Below, piece by piece: positions 23,223 to 38,986 of a DNA stretch of 64,000 bases. The stretch is taken from the NCBI RefSeq assembly GCF_003568845.1, contig NZ_CP030126.1, positions 1,577,001 through 1,641,000 of the forward strand, in the 5' to 3' direction. The translations under genes and the position numbers were made by a program. The notes under the pieces are model-generated. The model searched no databases. It was not told where the DNA came from and saw only the letters and a list, made by a program, of their open reading frames with translations. Each line of letters begins with the position of its first letter. The stretch's first letter is position 1. Origin of the DNA: Indioceanicola profundi (GTDB taxonomy: Bacteria; Pseudomonadota; Alphaproteobacteria; Azospirillales; Azospirillaceae).

Positions 23223-24254
23223 ATGGCGGGCGGCAGTGGCAATGACCAGGCCCCGATCATCATCAAGAAGATCAAGCGTGGCGAGGAAGGGCACCATGGC
23301 GGCGCCTGGAAGGTGGCCTATGCCGACTTCGTAACGGCCATGATGGCGTTCTTCCTGCTGCTCTGGCTGCTGAACGTCACCACCTCAGAACAGAAGATGG
23401 GCATCGCCGACTATTTCAGCCCGGCCAGCCCGTCGAAGCAGGAAAGCGGAGCCGGCGGCATTCTGAGCGGCCGCACCATCACCGTGGAAGGATCGAAGGC
23501 GAACGCCAGCTCTCCGCCCCAGATCACCCTTCCCACCCCGTCCATTCCCAGTTCCAACGCGCCCGATGACGGGATGGAGGATTTCGAAAGCTCCGCCGAC
23601 GCGGCTGCAGGGTCCGAGGCCGACGGCCAGGGCCGTTCCCCCTATATAGAGGGCATGGCCGAACTGGACGCCGCCGGCCGGCGGGCCGAGGCGGATCGCA
23701 ATCGGGATGGCGAACTCAGCCCGGAGGAGGTCCGGGACGCGCTGGCGAAGCTTGAGCAGGAGCGGTTCGATGAGGCTGTCCGGAAGCTTCGCCAAGCCAT
23801 CCAGGCCGTGCCGGAGATGCAGACGCTGGCGGAAAGCCTGATCATCGACCAGACGCCGGAGGGGCTGCGCATCCAGCTTGTGGACCAGTTCGGCTATTCC
23901 ATGTTCCCTTCCGGCGGCGCCCAGATGTTCCCACAGACGGCGCAGCTTCTCTCCGCCGTGGCGCAGGCCGTGGCGCGGCTGCCCAATCGCCTGTCCGTCA
24001 CGGGCCATACGGACGGCCTGCCGTTCCGCCAGGGTGCCGGCTTCTCCAATTGGGAGCTTTCCACCGATCGCGCCAACGCCAGCCGCCGGGCGCTGGAGGC
24101 TGCGGGCGTGAGCCCCGACCGTTTCGAGTCCGTAATCGGGCGGGCGGACAAGGAGCATCTGTTTCCGGAGGACCCGAACTCCCCGCGGAACCGCAGGATT
24201 TCCATCGTCCTGCTGCGCGAACAGCCAATCGGCGAGGCGGCGAACGGTCCTTGA
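23223..24254 (+). CDS. motB: Flagellar motor protein MotB with EF-hand-like loop
   Basis: Stator subunit that anchors to peptidoglycan and conducts ions with MotA. 343 residues. The N-terminal membrane helix carries the ion-binding Asp35 (AYADFVTAMMAFFLLLWLLN). A Ser/Pro/Asp-rich linker spans about 60-150. The OmpA-like peptidoglycan-binding domain spans about 215-335 (VTGHTDGLPF, FSNWELSTDRANASRRAL). Residues 158-169 (DRNRDGELSPEE, 23694-23729) fit a canonical EF-hand Ca2+ loop, with D, N, D, G, L and E at positions 1, 3, 5, 6, 8 and 12. motA is not adjacent; the gene stands alone. Confidence 0.95.
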   Translation: MAGGSGNDQAPIIIKKIKRGEEGHHGGAWKVAYADFVTAMMAFFLLLWLLNVTTSEQKMGIADYFSPASPSKQESGAGGILSGRTITVEGSKANASSPPQITLPTPSIPSSNAPDDGMEDFESSADAAAGSEADGQGRSPYIEGMAELDAAGRRAEADRNRDGELSPEEVRDALAKLEQERFDEAVRKLRQAIQAVPEMQTLAESLIIDQTPEGLRIQLVDQFGYSMFPSGGAQMFPQTAQLLSAVAQAVARLPNRLSVTGHTDGLPFRQGAGFSNWELSTDRANASRRALEAAGVSPDRFESVIGRADKEHLFPEDPNSPRNRRISIVLLREQPIGEAANGP

Positions 24255-30427: not shown

Positions 30428-33400
30428 TCAGTTTCCCAGCGGTCCGCTGGGCGGCACGGCGGATGCCTCCTGCCGGGTCCTGTAGCCGTCCAGGAAGCTT
30501 CGGAACGTATCGATCTCCGCCATCCGGGCCTGAATGCTGTTCAGGTCCACCAGCCCCGCCGGTTCGCCCGGCCGGGTCAGTACGGTGAACATCTGCGCTT
30601 CGGCCGTCTCTCCCATCGCGGGTCCGAACCGGTCGCGCAGGGTCGCCAGCCCGGCATCGTCCTGGGCCAGCGACAGTGCCACCGCCTGGTTCACAACCAG
30701 TTTCGCCGTCTCGGCCGGGATTTTCGTGCCGTCCGCTGGCGGAGGACCGATGACATCCGCCAGCGCCTGCGCCGCGGCTGGCCACTGCTTATCCCGCCAC
30801 GCGATGTCGATCCGCAGCAGGGCCGCCGGCCTGGAGCTGTCGGCTGCCAGGAGCTGCACCGCATCCGCGCCTCTGCCGGTGCGCGACAGGGCCCGCGCCC
30901 GCAACAACCGCCGCTCCTCCTCCAGCGAGGGCGGCAGATCGGGCGCGTTGCTTTTGTCCAGAGCCGTGAGCGCGTCATCCGGCCTGTTGTCGAGCAGGCG
31001 GATCGCCGCCAACCGTGCGCCGACCTTCGCCTTTTCCGCGCCGCTCAGCCGGAACTGCACCTGCCGGTCCAGAAGCTCCGCAGCCCTGTCCAGCAGGTCG
31101 ATTTCCACCAGACGCTCGGCCAGCCGACGAATGATCCGGTCGCCATCCGCGCCCGGCGGGGTCAGCTCCCGGTACTGCTCATAGAGGGACAGCGCCTCCA
31201 GCGGTGAGAGGTGCGCCGCGCCGTCCTTCAGGAACAGGTCCGTGAAGGTGCCGGTCATCTGGTTCGCGATCTCCGCCGCCTGCGGATCATCGGGGAAGAG
31301 CGAGATGGTACGGCGCATGGTGTCGAAGGCCTGGGCGTAGTTGCCGGCCAGCACATGCATCTCCCCGAGCCGGCGCTGGATCGCCAGTTCAAGCCCGTCG
31401 CCGCGCCAGGCGAAGCGGAGTTTTTCGTATTCCTCAGCCGCCTGCTGCGCCGTGATCTCGCCATCGCCGAGACGCAGCTCGATCAGGTCGCGCGTGGCAA
31501 GGGTCCGGTTCAACCGGTCATCGCCCGCCGCCAGCCCGGCCAGCGTCTTCTTGGCCTTCGCCGTGTCCCCCAGCGCCTGCTGCACCCTGGCGCGGCGATA
31601 CCGGACATGGTTCGCATCCGAACCGTCCTCGGCGCCGCGCTTCACCAGCCGATCGGTCAACAGGGCCGCCGTTTCCACGGCTCCCTGTGCCAGCGCGCTA
31701 TCCACCGCAGCCATGGCGATACGGGTGAAGAAGGGGTCCGGGAAGCTATCCAGGCGGTCGCGCCGTGCCGTGAACAGGCGGTGGGCCAGCGCATGGTCGC
31801 CCGCCTTTGATGCGGCCATGGCCCGCCAGAGATCCGCATCCGGCTCTCCGCCCAGGTCCCGTGCTGACAAATCCTGCTGCGCGCCCTGGATGTCGCCTGT
31901 CAGCGCCCGCCCCACGCCCCTGACGGCCAGGAACTCCGGCCGCCGGTCAATATCGGGCTGCTCCTGCTGGACCAGACTCAGCATGGCCAGGGCTTCCGTA
32001 CCGAAACCATTGGCGGCGTAGAACCGGGCGAGGTCGAGCCGCGCCTTATCGCGCAGCTCCGCCGGCGCTTCGGTTTCCCGCTGCCACAGCACCTGCCGAG
32101 TCGGGATCATGTCCTTGGCAGCCACCCTGCCCCACCTGTCGAAGTCGAACAGAGCCTCGGGCTCAGCCGCGACGACCGGGGGATTGGCCGTCAGCGCGTC
32201 CTCCTCCGGTGACAGGCGCAGCCCGCCGGGCACGGTCATGTCCACGCCCTCCCGCACCGCGCGGACCTCCAGCCGGTCATCAAGCGGTCGGATCGCCAGA
32301 CCCTGCACCGTCGGCAGCAACTCCGCCTCGCGGAACCGCCTCGGTTCGGCGAGGCGCTGTCCAGCGACCGGAAGCGGAACCAGATGAAGCACATCCCCGA
32401 CGACAGGGTCCTGGAAGCGGAGGATCGTGTCCGCCTCCTCCGCCGCGATGACAACGCGTGCGCCGAGGGCGAAGTCCGGGTCCGGGCGGACATTGATGCT
32501 GGCCGGACCTCCGGTTGCGTCGGCCTGCTCCAACGAAATGCTCCAACGGGTTCCGTCGCGCTCCACCCGTGGAACCGCCAGCGGCGGCAGCGCCAGGCGA
32601 TAGCCGCTCCCCTCTTCCAGCTCCACCTTTTCGACGGTCCCGGTGAAACCGCCGAGGGCCGGACCCGAGGGCTGTGCATCCACGACGCGGTCGAACAGCA
32701 CATAGAACCAGCCCGCGCGCTCGAACATCACAGCGGCGGTGGGCTTGCGCGGATCGAAAACAATCTGTGCGGCGGAGTGTGCGGGCGGCGCTGTTTCCGT
32801 CCGGATCGCCGCCGCTGCCGGCTGCGGGGGGGAAGGCGGAGGCGCGGAAGGCTCCTGCGGCGTCTCCTGGGCCGGCGCAAGCGGTTGCGGCGTGCGGTCC
32901 GCGACGACGGGCCGGGCCTGCTGCGGCTCCGCCGCCTGCTGCCGGGCAGCTTCCTGCGCTTCCTCCGTTCCGGAGCCGCGGCCCGGAATCTTGTACAGCG
33001 GGACGTCTTCCGACGCCGATCCTGATGGTTTAGCAGCCGCGGCGGCCGACGCGGCCGGCTGCGCCGCCGGGGCGGGTTCCGCAGCTTCCGCCGCGGGCGG
33101 CTGCGGCGCGGCGGCCGCCCTGGCGGAGGGCGGCGGGTCGGAAACGTCGATCACCAGCCGCGTGCCGTTGCGGAAGTCCTTCAGCACCGCTCCAGGCGGT
33201 ACCGTGAAGGACACCGCCATCCCCTGCTCGGATGAGTCTTCCGCCGTCAGATCGGCTACGCGTGGCGGATTGATCCGGCGCGCCCGCGCCAGGTCAGCCC
33301 GTCCAGGAGCGGCGAACCGGACCGTAACCCGGTCGCCATTCCGCTCGATGACATGGGGCACCGGAGTATTCCAGTCGAATACCAGACGCGCATAGGCCGG

Positions 33401-33547
33401 ATGGATGCCGGCCCGCACAGGCACGGTCGGGATTTCAGTCGCGGCGGCCTCCGCCGGGGCGGCTTCCTGAGCCATCGCGGGCGGGGTCAGGAAAGTCGCG
33501 GCAAGCAGCAGGGCCGCGAAGGCGTCGGTCAATGGCCGGCGGTTCAT
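30428..33547 (-). CDS. Large secreted beta-domain/TPR protein of the flagellar operon
   Basis: 1039 residues. Signal peptide 1-26 (LLLAATFLTPPAMA). An AMIN-like beta domain spans about 45-138 (YARLVFDWNTPVPHVIERNG, GTRLVIDVSDPP). An Ala/Pro-rich linker spans about 140-260. A second beta-rich region spans about 265-470, and a long helical TPR-like repeat array spans about 480-1020 (ARLDLARFYAANGFGTEALA and similar units). It is probably periplasmic. The start overlaps the preceding MotB-like stop (ATGA), and it is the last gene of the fliL-fliM operon. The layout of beta domain, linker and TPR superhelix recalls Campylobacter PflA, a stator scaffold; this is analogy, not shown homology. Confidence 0.85.
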   Translation of the reverse strand: MNRRPLTDAFAALLLAATFLTPPAMAQEAAPAEAAATEIPTVPVRAGIHPAYARLVFDWNTPVPHVIERNGDRVTVRFAAPGRADLARARRINPPRVADLTAEDSSEQGMAVSFTVPPGAVLKDFRNGTRLVIDVSDPPPSARAAAAPQPPAAEAAEPAPAAQPAASAAAAAKPSGSASEDVPLYKIPGRGSGTEEAQEAARQQAAEPQQARPVVADRTPQPLAPAQETPQEPSAPPPSPPQPAAAAIRTETAPPAHSAAQIVFDPRKPTAAVMFERAGWFYVLFDRVVDAQPSGPALGGFTGTVEKVELEEGSGYRLALPPLAVPRVERDGTRWSISLEQADATGGPASINVRPDPDFALGARVVIAAEEADTILRFQDPVVGDVLHLVPLPVAGQRLAEPRRFREAELLPTVQGLAIRPLDDRLEVRAVREGVDMTVPGGLRLSPEEDALTANPPVVAAEPEALFDFDRWGRVAAKDMIPTRQVLWQRETEAPAELRDKARLDLARFYAANGFGTEALAMLSLVQQEQPDIDRRPEFLAVRGVGRALTGDIQGAQQDLSARDLGGEPDADLWRAMAASKAGDHALAHRLFTARRDRLDSFPDPFFTRIAMAAVDSALAQGAVETAALLTDRLVKRGAEDGSDANHVRYRRARVQQALGDTAKAKKTLAGLAAGDDRLNRTLATRDLIELRLGDGEITAQQAAEEYEKLRFAWRGDGLELAIQRRLGEMHVLAGNYAQAFDTMRRTISLFPDDPQAAEIANQMTGTFTDLFLKDGAAHLSPLEALSLYEQYRELTPPGADGDRIIRRLAERLVEIDLLDRAAELLDRQVQFRLSGAEKAKVGARLAAIRLLDNRPDDALTALDKSNAPDLPPSLEEERRLLRARALSRTGRGADAVQLLAADSSRPAALLRIDIAWRDKQWPAAAQALADVIGPPPADGTKIPAETAKLVVNQAVALSLAQDDAGLATLRDRFGPAMGETAEAQMFTVLTRPGEPAGLVDLNSIQARMAEIDTFRSFLDGYRTRQEASAVPPSGPLGN

Positions 33548-34290
33548 GGCAGGCCCCCCTGTTCTCCGCTCGCACGATGCTCCCGCACGATCAGGTCCAC
33601 GCGCCGCGCCAGCTCGCGCCGTCGGACCTCCGGAAGCCAGGGTGCGACCTCGCCGAACGCTGCATCGCCCTGGCCGCGGACGGTGATGTCGCGCTGATAT
33701 CCGGCGTCGGCCAGCGCATCCGCCACCGCACCGGCGCGTGCAAGCGACAGCTCCCAGTTGGAGGGCCAGCGCGGGCCGGGCGTGGCCGGATCGGCATGAC
33801 CGACCACATCCACCGCATTGCCGAGATTGGCCGCAATACCGCCCAGCAGGAAGACCGCGCGCCGCCCCGCCGGCGACAGCTCGGCGGAGTCGGAGGTGAA
33901 CAAAAGGTCCGACGGAAGGGCCAGCACGATATGGTCCTCACGCCGGGTCATCCGCACATTGGCCAGTTCCGCACGCCCGGCCATCTGGCTTTCGAATACC
34001 CGGCCGAGATAGCCCAGGTCGATCGCCTGCTCCCGGTCCGTTCCCTCGGCATTGAAAGCCGTGCGGGGAGTGGCCTCGCCATCCTGCCGGGGCGCGGCTT
34101 CGCCGGGCAGTCCCTGGGCGAAGGCTGCATATCGCCGTGGGTCAGGCTCCGACATGGCGAACAGCATGACGAAGAAGGTCAGCAGCAGGCAGACCAGATC
34201 GGTGAAAGTCACCAGCCAAGCGCGTCCCGCCGGGCCGCTCCCGCCAGGGATCAGACGTCCGAAGCCCGGAATTCCGGCGGCAGCGCTCAT
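33544..34290 (-). CDS. MotB-like membrane protein A (OmpA-type C-terminus)
   Basis: 248 residues. Transmembrane helix about 25-46 with a MotB-type Asp31 (WLVTFTDLVCLLLTFFVMLF). A linker follows, then an OmpA/MotB-like domain about 117-235 (IVLALPSDLLFTSDSAELSP, VVGHADPATPGP, SNWELSLARAGAVADAL). It overlaps its neighbours by ATGA on both sides. It differs from the ordinary MotB at 23223 in lacking the basic cytoplasmic N-terminus. It is probably a paralogous stator or stator-associated protein. Confidence 0.85.
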   Translation of the reverse strand: MSAAAGIPGFGRLIPGGSGPAGRAWLVTFTDLVCLLLTFFVMLFAMSEPDPRRYAAFAQGLPGEAAPRQDGEATPRTAFNAEGTDREQAIDLGYLGRVFESQMAGRAELANVRMTRREDHIVLALPSDLLFTSDSAELSPAGRRAVFLLGGIAANLGNAVDVVGHADPATPGPRWPSNWELSLARAGAVADALADAGYQRDITVRGQGDAAFGEVAPWLPEVRRRELARRVDLIVREHRASGEQGGLP

Positions 34291-34994
34291 GACCCGGCCT
34301 CCGGCGTAAGAGAGATCGCACGGCCGGCGGCGGTCAGGGTGAACAGCAGGCGCAGTCGGCCCGACGGTCCAGCCTCCATCCCGACCGTCAGCGCACCGGC
34401 GGGCGCGCCATGATGGACCAGTCCGCGGGCGATGGCTCCGGCCCCGTCGATCTGCCCGACCCTGGCGTCCGGATCGCCCCCCGCCGCGAGAAGCGCCTCC
34501 AGCCGCACCTGCACTCCGCCCGCACGCGGAAGCAGAATTCCTGCCACGCGGCTCAGCAGCGCCACCCGGTCCTCACGCACGGTCTGCTGCCCGCTTCCAT
34601 CCAGGAGCAGCTCCGTAGCCGGCATTTCCAGGACGAGAGTGCGCCCATCGGAATCCGGAGCAAGCTTGGCCAGCGGTATCTCCGCCAGGATCAGTTCGCC
34701 AAGTTCCCGCACCGCCGTGGCCGCCTCTGCCAGAGATCCGGCCCGGAAGCGGTCGCCCGACGGGTCCTCAGCGCCTTCTCCGCGGGCGAATGCCGCTTCC
34801 ACGCTTTCCAGCACGTCGCCGACCTTCGCCTCCTCGAACCGGGAAAGCGCATTCATCAGGATGAAGAAGCCCAGCAGCAGGATGAAAACGGCCAGATACT
34901 GGATCAGCCCGGACGAGCCATCCCCCTCGCCGCCCGGCGGATTGCCCGCCGGTCCGATGCCTTGTCCAGTTGTACTGTCCTGCGATCCGAACAT
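34287..34994 (-). CDS. MotB-like membrane protein B, lacking the ion-binding Asp
   Basis: 235 residues. A Gly/Pro-rich N-terminus (1-28) precedes one membrane helix at 29-50 (LIQYLAVFILLLGFFILMNA) with no acidic residue. The periplasmic part has a degenerate MotB/OmpA-like fold (TLVLEMPATELLLDGSG, RVALLSRVAGIL) matching the core of protein A. No peptidoglycan-binding TD..R signature is evident. It is coupled to protein A by ATGA overlap and lies 21 bp after cheZ. It could form a mixed pair with protein A. Confidence 0.75.
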   Translation of the reverse strand: MFGSQDSTTGQGIGPAGNPPGGEGDGSSGLIQYLAVFILLLGFFILMNALSRFEEAKVGDVLESVEAAFARGEGAEDPSGDRFRAGSLAEAATAVRELGELILAEIPLAKLAPDSDGRTLVLEMPATELLLDGSGQQTVREDRVALLSRVAGILLPRAGGVQVRLEALLAAGGDPDARVGQIDGAGAIARGLVHHGAPAGALTVGMEAGPSGRLRLLFTLTAAGRAISLTPEAGS

Positions 34995-35015: not shown

Positions 35016-35651
35016 TCAGTCGAACAGGCTGTCGATGAAGGCCTGGTCCACCCCGGCCCCGCTGAGTTGCGGGCCGTGGAGCAGGAACTTGTCCTCGTCG
35101 TCCTTCTTGACCTCTTCCGCCACATTGGGATGGCGCTGCTGCACCTCCTCCCCCATGGCGAGCAGCATGGCCTCGACCTTGGCCTCGATATGCTTCAGCG
35201 CGCGGACTACCTTGGTGATGCGCTGGCCGGTAATGTCCTGGAAGTTGCAGGCCTCGTAGATGCCCGTGGTGACGTCCATCAGCTTCGCAGAGGTCTCGGC
35301 CGGTGCATCGCCCGCCAGCGCCATGATCTGGTCGCAGGCATCCATGATGCGGTTGGTGGCCTCCTCAGTATGGGTGACGACCGCGTCCAACTCATCGGTC
35401 GCGCGCGGAATATGCTCGGAGTGGATGTCGGCCGGATGCAGTTCCGCGATCTCGCGCTTGGCATTGTTGATGTAGCGCGCCAGCGCCTCCAACTCGGCAT
35501 AGACCTTCAGTTCCTGCTGCCCGACATCGCCGCCCATGGAGGCGATCACGGAGCTGACGATGCCCGCCACCTCCTCGCGGGTGAGCGGGACCTTCGCCTG
35601 AACGCGGGCGGTGTCGAGCATGTCCTGCAGGGCGGGATCGGCGGATCGCAT
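35016..35651 (-). CDS. cheZ: CheZ-type CheY-P phosphatase
   Basis: 211 residues. Long helical protein with the CheZ catalytic segment EACNFQDITGQRITKVV; Asp139 and Gln143 correspond to the E. coli catalytic pair. A linker rich in charged residues follows, then a C-terminal CheY-binding helix (GVDQAFIDSLFD). It would dephosphorylate CheY-P at the motor. CheZ is less common in alphaproteobacteria, which often use phosphate-sink CheY proteins. It lies 59 bp downstream of motE. Confidence 0.9.
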   Translation of the reverse strand: MRSADPALQDMLDTARVQAKVPLTREEVAGIVSSVIASMGGDVGQQELKVYAELEALARYINNAKREIAELHPADIHSEHIPRATDELDAVVTHTEEATNRIMDACDQIMALAGDAPAETSAKLMDVTTGIYEACNFQDITGQRITKVVRALKHIEAKVEAMLLAMGEEVQQRHPNVAEEVKKDDEDKFLLHGPQLSGAGVDQAFIDSLFD

Positions 35652-35710: not shown

Positions 35711-36547
35711 TCATTGCGGAAGCGCCGGAAGATTCGTGCGGGCGGCGCGCAGGGCCGTGATCTTGCTGGCCCTGGCCGGGTCCATTGCGCCGAAGATGGG
35801 GGCCAGCTTGCTTTCACGCATGCGGCCGATGACATCCAGAAGCACATCGTCGCCCAGTTGCTCGAAGACGGCCGCAGCCTCCTTCGGCTTCATGGTCTCG
35901 TAGATCTTGACCAGACTGTCGAGCTGAGCCTGCTCCTGCTCATTCACCTGCTGGATCAGCTTTCCGATTTCGGCCTTCAGCGCGTCCAGCTCGCCGATCT
36001 TCTGGTTCAGACGCTGCTCCGCGACCTGAACCAGCGCCTCTCTCTGGTCCAGCTCGCGGGCGCGCGCATCCAACTGCTCCCGGCGCTCCTGAAGCCGTTG
36101 CAGCAGCTCCACCTCCGACGGGTTGAAGGAGCGTTCCGGCTGCGGAGCGGCGGCAGGCGCCGGTGCGGGCTGTGCGGCGGCAGGGGGCTTCTCGGCGGCC
36201 GGCTGGGCGGCCGGCGCTTCCGCCACCTGGACAGGAGCAGCTTCGGCCGGCGCAGGCCGCAATGGCGGCAGACCTTCGGTTACCTGCTGGCTGGCAACCA
36301 CGCGCGCCACATCAGGAAACTCGCCGCCCGTAGCCACCGCGGTCCAGATATCGCCGACCCGCGCGCCCAGCAGCAGCACGGCCGCGAAAATCGTCGCCGG
36401 AATCAGTCGTGGCCGAAGGGAAAACCTCCGGCGCGGCGCTTTCTCCGATGCCTTGGCGGCCTTGCGGACCGGCTGCTTGGCCCGCACGGGCGGGCGGGCC
36501 GCAGCGGCGGGGACAGTCCTGGACGAGGTCTGCGCGTCGCGGGTCAT
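35711..36547 (-). CDS. motE: MotE-family flagellar motor chaperone-like protein
   Basis: 278 residues. A basic cytoplasmic N-terminus of about 45 residues precedes a membrane helix (LIPATIFAAVLLLGARVGDI) and an Ala/Pro-rich linker (about 95-140). A coiled coil follows (about 145-205), then an MgtE-N-like helical domain (IYETMKPKEAAAVFEQLGDD, LLDVIGRMRESKLAPIFGAM). In Sinorhizobium, MotE assists the periplasmic motor protein MotC. The start overlaps the upstream stop by ATGA. Confidence 0.88.
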   Translation of the reverse strand: MTRDAQTSSRTVPAAAARPPVRAKQPVRKAAKASEKAPRRRFSLRPRLIPATIFAAVLLLGARVGDIWTAVATGGEFPDVARVVASQQVTEGLPPLRPAPAEAAPVQVAEAPAAQPAAEKPPAAAQPAPAPAAAPQPERSFNPSEVELLQRLQERREQLDARARELDQREALVQVAEQRLNQKIGELDALKAEIGKLIQQVNEQEQAQLDSLVKIYETMKPKEAAAVFEQLGDDVLLDVIGRMRESKLAPIFGAMDPARASKITALRAARTNLPALPQ

Positions 36548-37026
36548 TGGCGCAGGTTCTCCAGCGCCTGGAGCAGTTCCTTTTCCGCCTTGGACCGGGG
36601 CTCCGCCGCATTGGCGGACGGCCCCGGCGCCAGACGGGCGGGCGGGGCCGGCGGAACCGGAGCGGGCGCCGGGCTCTGCGCCGACATCGCCGCCTGCCGC
36701 GCCTTGCCGCTGGCCGCCTCCAGACGGTTGGCGAGGCCATCGGCGGACTGCACGATGATCTCCAGCTCCTCCTTCAAATCCTGGGCCTTCAGGATTTGGG
36801 ACTGGAGCAGTTCACCGGATTCGCTGGCGGCCCTGCGCATACCCTTGACGCCGGCTTCCGCCTGCGCCGTTGCCTCGGCGAAGCCCTTCACCAGACCTTC
36901 CAGCTCGGACCGGCTCTCCTTCACGGCGGTAAGCTGCCGGTTCAGGCGGATGGCATAGACGATGGTGGCGATCAGCAGACAGATCACCACCAGATCCAGC
37001 AGGATGGAAATGACGCCCGGCATCAT
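36544..37026 (-). CDS. Small membrane-anchored coiled-coil protein, DUF6468-like
   Basis: 160 residues. N-terminal membrane helix (ISILLDLVVICLLIATIVYA), then a heptad-like helical region (about 30-110) and a Pro/Ala-rich stretch before a short C-terminal helix. I recall this as DUF6468, found beside fliM in alphaproteobacteria; role unknown. It is coupled to fliM and motE by ATGA overlaps, so it is very likely made in step with the switch complex. Confidence 0.8.
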   Translation of the reverse strand: MMPGVISILLDLVVICLLIATIVYAIRLNRQLTAVKESRSELEGLVKGFAEATAQAEAGVKGMRRAASESGELLQSQILKAQDLKEELEIIVQSADGLANRLEAASGKARQAAMSAQSPAPAPVPPAPPARLAPGPSANAAEPRSKAEKELLQALENLRQ

Positions 37027-38096
37027 GGCTGCCCCTCAGGCTTCGGCGCTTCCTTGTCGATGCGCACGGCAATGTTTCCGCCCTTGCGGCCCATTCGGCC
37101 AAGGAACATGGGCACGTCCCCGCAGCGGAGGTCGATGGTGTCGTCCGGCGCCACATTCAGCAGCACGCGGCTCCCGACGCGCCAGGACAGCACCTCGTTC
37201 AGCGGCAGCACGATCTCGTCCAGCACGGCGGAGAGGTGAATGTCCGTGCTCCACAGCTCGGACGCGAGGTGGGTTTCCCAGATGCTGTCGCGACCGAACT
37301 TCTCGCCCATGAACATCTGCAACAGCAGCTCGCGCACCGGCTCCAGCGTGGCATAGGGGATCAGCAGCTCCAGCCGGCCGCCGCGGTCCTCCATGTCGAT
37401 GCGCAGCTTGACCAGTACGGCGGCGTTGGCCTGCCGGGCGATGGTGGCGAAGCGGGGATTCGTCTCCAGCCGGTCGAAGCGGAAGGTCACCGGCGAAAGC
37501 GGGTCGAAGGCGGCGGACAGGTCGGACAGGACCACATGCACCATGCGCTCGACCAGATTGCGCTCGATGGTGGTGTAGGGCCGGCCTTCGATGCGCATCG
37601 CCGCGGTGCCGCGCCGCCCGCCCAGCAGCACGTCCACGATGGAGTAGATCAGCGCGGAGTCGATGACCATCAGGCCGTAATTGTCCCACTCCTCCGCCTT
37701 GAACACGGCCAGCATGGCGGGCAGCGGAATGGAGTTCAGGTAGTCGCCGAACCGGACCGAGCTGATCTGGTCCAGGCTGACCTCGACATTGTCGCTGGTG
37801 AAGTTGCGCAGGCTCGTCGACATCATGCGGACGAGGCGGTCGAAGACCACCTCCAGCATGGGCAGGCGTTCGTAATTCACCAGCGCCGAGTTCACCAGCG
37901 CCATCACGCCGGTGTTGTCGCCGTCGCCGTTGCCGTCGCTGTCGAAGCCGAGAAGGCTGTCGATCTCGTCCTGGTTCAGGACGCGCGTTGCCCCGCCGCC
38001 GCCCATGTCGCCGAAGCCGTCGCCGCCCTCATCCGCCAGGGCCGCCCATTCGGCGGCCATGCGTTCTTCCTCGCTGAGCTCCTGCGGGTCCGCCAT
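37023..38096 (-). CDS. fliM: Flagellar motor switch protein FliM
   Basis: 357 residues. C-ring protein that binds CheY-P and sets rotation direction. The VLNQDEIDSLLGF segment near residue 42 is the CheY-binding/N-terminal motif. The middle CheC-like domain carries LPMLEVVFDRLVRMMSTSL and the C-terminal SpoA domain carries LPLNEVLSWRVGSRVLLNV and GDVPMFLGRMG. An extra ~30-residue acidic stretch precedes the CheY-binding motif. No fliN follows in this operon. It lies 41 bp after fliL. Confidence 0.97.
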   Translation of the reverse strand: MADPQELSEEERMAAEWAALADEGGDGFGDMGGGGATRVLNQDEIDSLLGFDSDGNGDGDNTGVMALVNSALVNYERLPMLEVVFDRLVRMMSTSLRNFTSDNVEVSLDQISSVRFGDYLNSIPLPAMLAVFKAEEWDNYGLMVIDSALIYSIVDVLLGGRRGTAAMRIEGRPYTTIERNLVERMVHVVLSDLSAAFDPLSPVTFRFDRLETNPRFATIARQANAAVLVKLRIDMEDRGGRLELLIPYATLEPVRELLLQMFMGEKFGRDSIWETHLASELWSTDIHLSAVLDEIVLPLNEVLSWRVGSRVLLNVAPDDTIDLRCGDVPMFLGRMGRKGGNIAVRIDKEAPKPEGQP

Positions 38097-38137: not shown

Positions 38138-38659
38138 TCATTGCACCAGGAATTCGTTGATCAGCACGTCCTTGATCCGGACCGGGTGGGCAGCGGCGTT
38201 GACGCGCATCTGCAGTTCCTCCCGCAGCCGGTACAGCCCGGCGGAGCCGCGCAGATCATCGGGCCTCAGCTCACGCAGATAGACCTGGAAGGTGTCCACG
38301 ATCCGGGGCATGACGCCCTGGATCGCCGCCTGATCCTCCGGCCGCATCAACTCCAGTGTGATGTTGAGCTTGAGGAAGACCGGCCGCCGCTCCTGGGTAT
38401 TCAGATTGACCAGGATCTCTTCCATGGGCAGGAAGACCGGCGGGCCGGTATAGGCCGGCGCGGCAGGCTGCTCTGCGTGCTCTTCCCCATGCTCCCCGGC
38501 ATGTCCGCCGAGCAGCCCCGAGAAGAATACGGCAGCGCCGCCGCCGATCACGATCAGCAGCGGCAGCACGATGAAGAGGACGATCTTCTTTCCGCTGAGC
38601 TTCTTGCGCGGAATGTCCTGATCGGTGATCCCGCCGCCATCCGTCTCAATCGCCGTCAT
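38138..38659 (-). CDS. fliL: Flagellar basal body-associated protein FliL
   Basis: 173 residues. A cytoplasmic tail precedes a membrane helix (KIVLFIVLPLLIVIGGGAAV) and a His/Glu-rich linker (HAGEHGEEHAEQ). The stomatin-like periplasmic domain ends in VRIKDVLINEFLVQ. FliL rings surround stator units and support their activity. ATG 38659 (MTAIETDGG) follows GGTGAAG. It is the first gene of the leftward flagellar operon. Confidence 0.93.
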   Translation of the reverse strand: MTAIETDGGGITDQDIPRKKLSGKKIVLFIVLPLLIVIGGGAAVFFSGLLGGHAGEHGEEHAEQPAAPAYTGPPVFLPMEEILVNLNTQERRPVFLKLNITLELMRPEDQAAIQGVMPRIVDTFQVYLRELRPDDLRGSAGLYRLREELQMRVNAAAHPVRIKDVLINEFLVQ

Positions 38660-38986
38660 GGCTTCACCGCCCTGTCCCCGTCCCCATGCCGCATCGGAAT
38701 GCCGTTCCGCGGCGAACCGGCCGTTCCGGTCCCCGTGAACCGGCCAGCACCCACCACGCACGAATGCGGTACCACCTAATCATGGGGTGGTTAACAAGGG
38801 CTTTCAACAATTTCGAGGGGGACCGGCAAAGAACAGCGGCAGGTGAGTCCCCCATGCCGCACTGCCGGAAACGGAACGGGCCGGAATGCAACTCGTGTTG
38901 TGCAATGCACGCTTACCCGCCTGTTGGGCTGGTGTTACTCTGCGCCGTCCGAGGGGCGGCGGGACAATCAGCAGGAGGAGCGCGGC
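38660..38986. other. Divergent intergenic region between fliL and the transglutaminase gene
   Basis: 327 bp. No gene seen. It should hold the flagellar operon promoter on the minus strand and the transglutaminase promoter on the plus strand. TTGCAC and TTGCA occur on the minus strand near 38890-38910 but with an 8-base gap, wrong for sigma-54. A GGAAC with TGTT at an 18-base gap begins near 38873 and is also off-spacing. Confidence 0.4.

Follow-up and report, generated by a model that had tools for sequence, protein, structure and literature searches.

Flagellar stators are modelled as five MotA subunits around two identical MotB helices, with both MotB aspartates active in proton transfer. 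The AMIN/TPR protein MotK of Cereibacter is a binding partner of MotE and MotB2, and rotation depends on it (PMC10954123). In Caulobacter the protein CC_2058/FssB, encoded beside a MotE homologue, is needed for motility, filament assembly not being lost (PMC7885107); motK, motE and fssB mutants have defects in rotation or motility (PMC10954123, PMC7885107). MotE itself has been proposed to form the E-ring in this class, and the MgtE_N domain is used to recognise the E-ring family (PMC13023049). Here we analyse a trio of genes that closes a fliL-fliM operon in Indioceanicola profundi, in a stretch of 64,000 nucleotides (contig NZ_CP030126.1, positions 1,577,001 to 1,641,000, hereafter the window). 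The trio encodes two MotB-like proteins, to which we give the working names MotBn (n, no aspartate) and MotBd (d, aspartate), and a large secreted TPR protein. The large protein is a candidate spoke of an already known kind, whereas the unreported part is the MotB pair, a variant of the MotB kind, of which no description was found in a literature search that did not reach most subscription journals. That many alphaproteobacteria carry the pair next to the large protein suggests a form, perhaps asymmetric, of the unit by which the flagellum is driven or anchored.

The three open reading frames lie on the minus strand, and their positions and two 4-nucleotide start/stop overlaps are exactly those given in the original prediction from which this analysis started. 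MotBn is a MotB-like membrane protein of 235 residues without the membrane aspartate (34287..34994; open reading frame, Pfam and AlphaFold), MotBd has 248 residues with Asp31 and MotB_plug and OmpA domains (33544..34290; open reading frame and Pfam), and the secreted AMIN/beta/TPR protein, a MotK/FssB/PflA-like spoke candidate, has 1039 residues (30428..33547; open reading frame, Pfam, AlphaFold and Foldseek). By the open reading frame coordinates, MotBn overlaps MotBd at 34287..34290 and MotBd overlaps the TPR gene at 33544..33547, both on the minus strand. The prediction that only one MotB-like protein would keep the membrane aspartate was borne out: MotBd has Asp31 (codon at 34198..34200, minus strand), the presumed proton carrier, and the alignment places Ala35 of MotBn (codon at 34890..34892, minus strand) at the equivalent of the proton-carrying Asp of MotB. 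This position is Asp in 117/117 MotBd homologues, whereas 114 of 115 MotBn homologues have a small residue (Ser in 83, Gly in 20, Ala in 11) and one has Asp. The MotB helix signature around Asp31 is equally strict, W25, F39 and F40 each being present in all 117 MotBd. MotBd matched the Pfam models MotB_plug (1e-13) and OmpA (3.6e-8), and its nearest named models are MotD, PRK08944 and MotS and not E. coli-type MotB, placing it on the MotD/PomB/MotS side of the family. In the window, its OmpA-like domain carries putative peptidoglycan-binding residues (GHAD, NWELSLARA). D167, N178 and R185, which by analogy with OmpA-like domains we take to be the set expected for peptidoglycan binding, are intact in 52 of the 117 MotBd; the remaining 65 all retain Asp31, indicating that selection on the membrane aspartate outlasts selection on wall binding. 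MotBn gave a weak MotB_plug match (2.4e-4, below the cut-off). Its AlphaFold model (predicted local distance difference test, pLDDT, 82.1) has one N-terminal transmembrane helix and an OmpA-like periplasmic domain, with the Helicobacter pylori MotB periplasmic domain (3s06, E 5e-6) as the best PDB match and that of Salmonella MotB also among the best.

We then asked how widely the pair occurs. With MotBn as the query, matches were found in 70/79 genomes of the order and in 95/289 sampled alphaproteobacterial genomes (E <= 0.001; the weakest of these 95 may stem from other MotB proteins). Gene order was identical in 20/20 loci from relatives in the order (one contig stretch begins at CheZ), and the trio was adjacent in 37/40 loci drawn from another 36 alphaproteobacterial families, the exceptions being a locus cut by a contig end (L205), one in which the TPR gene was not found (L223) and one that is rearranged (L227). 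Such conservation means that the gene arrangement is not a matter of chance. Profile annotation of 125 loci (80 reached via the TPR profile, 5 from genomes of the order without a MotBn match and the 40 from further families; L075 and L117 are one locus counted twice) found both MotB-like genes in 94, neither in 16 and a single one in none, with 15 that could not be judged. The 40 class loci cannot show absence of the pair because they were chosen through MotBn. In lineages where the pair is missing, such as Parvibaculum, Arenibaculum and a Micavibrio metagenome-assembled genome, the TPR gene is kept, mostly together with MotE; MotE and the TPR protein thus form the base to which the pair is added or from which it is lost as a unit. 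Thus the MotBn/MotBd pair is class-wide and inherited as a unit. The claim that the trio is a single module therefore stands for the all-or-none pair but not for the whole, as MotE and the TPR protein often occur without it. The MotBn-MotBd junction is a 1- or 4-nucleotide overlap in 86/115 homologous loci; this fits co-assembly, but it does not prove the fixed stoichiometry that the coupled translation had been taken to imply. In residual distance correlations across 49 loci, with the FliM and FliL distances removed, MotBn-MotBd was highest (0.44), followed by MotE-TPR (0.41), MotE-DUF6468 (0.38), DUF6468-TPR (0.37), MotBd-TPR (0.34) and MotBn-TPR (0.33). These correlations are weak evidence, because neighbouring genes share their history; the Cereibacter counterparts of MotE and the TPR protein do bind each other (PMC10954123).

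A phylum-level search gave weaker matches in another class, often two of them adjacent. Eleven loci there (L236-L239, L242 and L262-L267, from two families, ten of them from one) have a MotA-like gene, a MotB-like gene whose product has Gln or Glu in place of the Asp, a second MotB-like gene whose product has the Asp, and then FliL; FliM is visible next in 9 of the 11, the stretches of L263 and L265 ending before it. Both A subunits examined from this class fit PomA best. The Asp-less proteins of the two classes are separated in the tree, although the approximately unbiased test does not reject a single clade (p 0.43). Since a Glu may still serve as the proton carrier, the alphaproteobacterial state is not exactly reproduced in this class.

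The third protein was modelled with AlphaFold2 from 49 aligned homologues (mean pLDDT 83.7). The model confirms the two beta regions and the long helical array expected of the 1039-residue protein. Behind a signal-like N-terminal region, residues 41-136 (33140..33427, minus strand) form eight strands and a short helix at high pLDDT; we call this domain AMIN-like, for which the sequence matches are weak (AMIN-like 0.022, PilQ 0.003). A low-confidence Ala/Pro-rich linker leads to the second beta region, residues 261-438 (32234..32767, minus strand), and residues 477-1029 (30461..32119, minus strand) form a TPR superhelix, all as delimited in the AlphaFold model. The most conserved stretch of the protein lies in the C-terminal part of the superhelix (LYEQYRELTPPG...LAERLVEIDLLDRA). 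TPR models of Pfam matched the protein, all below their cut-offs, and sequence searches of the PDB with it returned only generic TPR and weak PilQ matches. The top Foldseek match in the PDB was 9hmf_K (E 1.8e-9, 871 columns), from the Campylobacter jejuni motor scaffold, with 9hmf_L at rank 19; 9HMF is a scaffold model that includes PflA and PflB (PMC12222027). This fold match, the position of the gene beside MotE and the parallels with MotK and FssB place the large protein within the known E-ring/spoke kind; compared with MotK and CC_2058 by description, it would be, by analogy, a further member of the MotK/FssB/PflA-type spokes. Two points of the original prediction are not supported. The module was called undescribed, but MotK and CC_2058/FssB are already known as AMIN/TPR or TPR proteins beside MotE (PMC10954123, PMC7885107), and it was said to have been built independently, which fits neither the best PDB match nor the position that its gene shares with those of MotK and CC_2058/FssB. 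The window genome also has a second protein of this type, homologous to the TPR protein (L013:3610-5886 on G000:C2; 758 residues, secreted; hhalign 99.6%, E 1e-24), whose gene lies directly upstream of the genome's second MotA-MotB pair (MotA2, MotB2).

How could the three proteins work? We give an even chance to a reading in which MotBn and MotBd would form a heteromeric B subunit, paired with a MotA from another locus and held by the MotE/TPR spoke. The trio would then be part of the flagellar motor, with the TPR protein as a periplasmic spoke of the MotK/FssB/PflA type whose AMIN-like domain would reach toward the cell wall and whose TPR array would bridge the stator zone and the E-ring of MotE. 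The MotB dimer would be replaced by MotBn and MotBd, most simply as a heterodimer; MotBd alone would bring the proton-accepting aspartate, and the helix of MotBn would be an inert partner, its periplasmic domain having the MotB fold. In alphaproteobacteria the two proteins would work, alongside the canonical MotB, with a MotA from elsewhere in the genome and would be held by the spoke and not by peptidoglycan alone. The reading is supported by the all-or-none pair, the opposite near-invariant residues, the retention of Asp31 in all 65 MotBd without the full peptidoglycan set, the translational coupling, the MotB fold of the MotBn model, the eleven second-class loci with MotA ahead of the two MotB-like genes, the distance correlation, the 9HMF match and the published defects of motK, motE and fssB mutants (PMC10954123, PMC7885107).

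Four observations weigh against it. No MotA-like gene was found in the 125 alphaproteobacterial loci with a profile of one window-genome MotA, a profile that is not blind to other subtypes because it found the MotA-like genes of the second class. Both flagellar MotA of the window genome are of the E. coli type (TIGR03818), while MotBd belongs to another MotB subfamily; one of these MotA genes adjoins a MotB of its own on another contig, and the other stands apart. The sole MotBn with an aspartate (L195:8801-9559, from G118) breaks the rule; as it branches first within the MotBn clade of the tree, its Asp may be the ancestral state or a converted helix. Lastly, the 9HMF match has low template modelling (TM) scores (0.17-0.23) and unrelated TPR proteins come close to it, so that the proposed likeness to PflA/PflB, sustained by the best PDB fold match, has support but not proof. 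The gene counts also bear on the partner of the pair. Of 34 genomes of the class that carry the pair, 32 show a single MotA_N match above the cut-off and 2 show none, whereas all 34 have two to five MotB_plug matches each; in the order, genomes that have fliM but lack the pair show equal MotB_plug and MotA_N counts in 7/8 cases. The MotA counts (PF20560) are a lower bound, since the model scores some MotA-like genes weakly or misses them, and in some genomes such genes adjoin a B gene of their own. Together with the MotA-free operons, these counts indicate that the pair seems to be without a dedicated MotA in alphaproteobacteria.

That the alphaproteobacterial operons lack MotA is also what favours an anchor, i.e. 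a non-conducting structural or regulatory pair through which the TPR spoke and the E-ring would be tied to both the canonical MotAB stator and the inner membrane. MotBn lacks a proton carrier at the usual site, the peptidoglycan residues degrade in many MotBd, and other lineages keep MotE and the TPR gene in the pair's absence, all of which agree with such an anchor. However, the absolute conservation of Asp31 and of W25, F39 and F40 is difficult to account for unless a MotA-type channel is involved, Asp31 is kept even where the wall-binding residues are lost, and the second class encodes the pair directly after MotA. We therefore regard the anchor as rather unlikely and favour the mixed subunit, because Asp31 is invariant and because the second class has operons of MotA, the Asp-less protein and the Asp-bearing protein. 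Several bacteria have more than one stator type on one motor, and MotBd has the complete MotB layout; both facts would suit a second, homodimeric MotBd stator with a shared MotA, to which MotBn would be a separate inhibitor, plug or assembly chaperone. This we consider improbable, as neither MotBn nor MotBd ever occurs alone and as a partner role is simpler for a protein that shares the transmembrane helix and the MotB fold. Envelope proteins commonly contain AMIN and TPR domains, which would allow the trio to be general envelope proteins, present in the operon by chance and with no motor role. That is very hard to credit, since the trio follows fliL-fliM-DUF6468-motE across many families of the class and motility defects of MotK and FssB mutants have been published (PMC10954123, PMC7885107). 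The original prediction of a flagellar, stator-linked periplasmic module is thus supported, the homologues lying in fliL-fliM operons across the class and not mostly outside flagellar operons.

Other stator genes of these genomes were also inspected. The window holds, outside the operon, a canonical E. coli-type MotB (MotB1, 23223..24254, plus strand; profile matches), whose periplasmic linker has an EF-hand-like stretch at residues 156-177 (DRNRDGELSPEE; Pfam EF-hand_1 0.0016, below the cut-off). MotB1 and the MotA gene at G000:C1:2858235 are ~1.26 Mb apart and do not form one operon. A MotA/ExbB-family gene at C1:1706356 was rejected as a third MotA since it sits in a tol-pal cluster, and of the MotA/ExbB-family genes at C1:593-600 kb, considered as candidates for the A subunit of the pair, two out of three frames look ExbB-like by reading. 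A 1.7-Mb genome (G160, with loci L220 and L257; 97% complete) has the pair with no MotA_N and no other MotB_plug match, which may reflect an assembly gap, diverged genes or a motor that uses only the pair. Some alphaproteobacteria have extra MotA-like/MotB-like pairs that are not obviously flagellar (L258, L259; MotB helix DAITLLMAFF).

The operon, on the minus strand throughout, reads fliL-fliM-DUF6468-motE-cheZ, followed by MotBn, MotBd and, last, the TPR protein. The trio does close it as predicted, but the DUF6468, MotE-like and CheZ genes intervene between fliM and the trio. Profile matches identify FliL (38138..38761, the first gene as read here), FliM (37023..38096), the DUF6468 protein (36544..37026), the MotE-like protein (35711..36547) and a CheZ-like phosphatase (35016..35651). 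The MotE-like protein, a proposed E-ring protein (PMC13023049), matched MgtE_N (PF03448, 2.2e-6) above the cut-off and the FlbB collar model (1.6e-7) below that model's cut-off. CheZ is the usual gene directly upstream of MotBn; in L220 and L225, CheB- and CheA-like genes (by reading) sit between the two. In several Azospirillum, CheZ, MotBn, MotBd and the TPR gene stand together with fliL-fliM-MotE absent within ~7 kb upstream.

Taken further, the mixed MotBn/MotBd subunit could be an obligate-heterodimer stator with one proton-carrying Asp, possibly evolved twice (once in alphaproteobacteria and once in the other class of the phylum), and in alphaproteobacteria clamped by MotE and the TPR protein instead of relying on peptidoglycan; this stronger form we hold tentatively, at somewhat less than an even chance. 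If true, an obligate heterodimer would be an exception to the MotA5:MotB2 rotary unit, in which the two aspartates are usually equivalent. A class-wide pair of one Asp and one non-Asp protein would offer a natural experiment on the need for both aspartates, on what sets step size and proton cost and on whether a protein spoke can anchor stators. The parts list of the alphaproteobacterial motor is also extended, the pair being added to MotE and its TPR partner, which were known.

Like the window protein, MotK of Cereibacter sphaeroides and CC_2058/FssB of Caulobacter crescentus are secreted proteins with an AMIN-like N-terminus and TPR helices, their genes adjoin MotE in the fliL operon, and their mutants, although flagellated, are unable to swim (PMC10954123, PMC7885107). 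MotK differs in its length (652 residues) and in that its described operon has motA and no MotBn/MotBd pair. PflA and PflB of Campylobacter jejuni (9HMF) share with the window protein a periplasmic beta domain and a TPR superhelix, while the window protein has no detectable sequence relation to them, is longer (1039 residues) and has a second large beta region. The MgtE_N domain by which the MotE, FlgY and FlbB family is recognised is found in the window in the MotE-like gene, a neighbour of the trio and not a part of it. The Myxococcus system AglR-AglQ-AglS resembles the pair in having two MotB homologues and one MotA homologue; whether AglQ and AglS form hetero- or homodimers is undecided (PMC9389320), and they differ from the pair in that both keep the Asp and in that they serve gliding and not a flagellum. 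With MotB, PomB, MotS and MotD, finally, MotBd shares the transmembrane Asp, the plug region and the OmpA domain, and MotBn shares the same layout and the MotB periplasmic fold. The pair is unlike these B subunits in being tandem paralogues, one of them Asp-less, that in alphaproteobacteria have no adjoining MotA.

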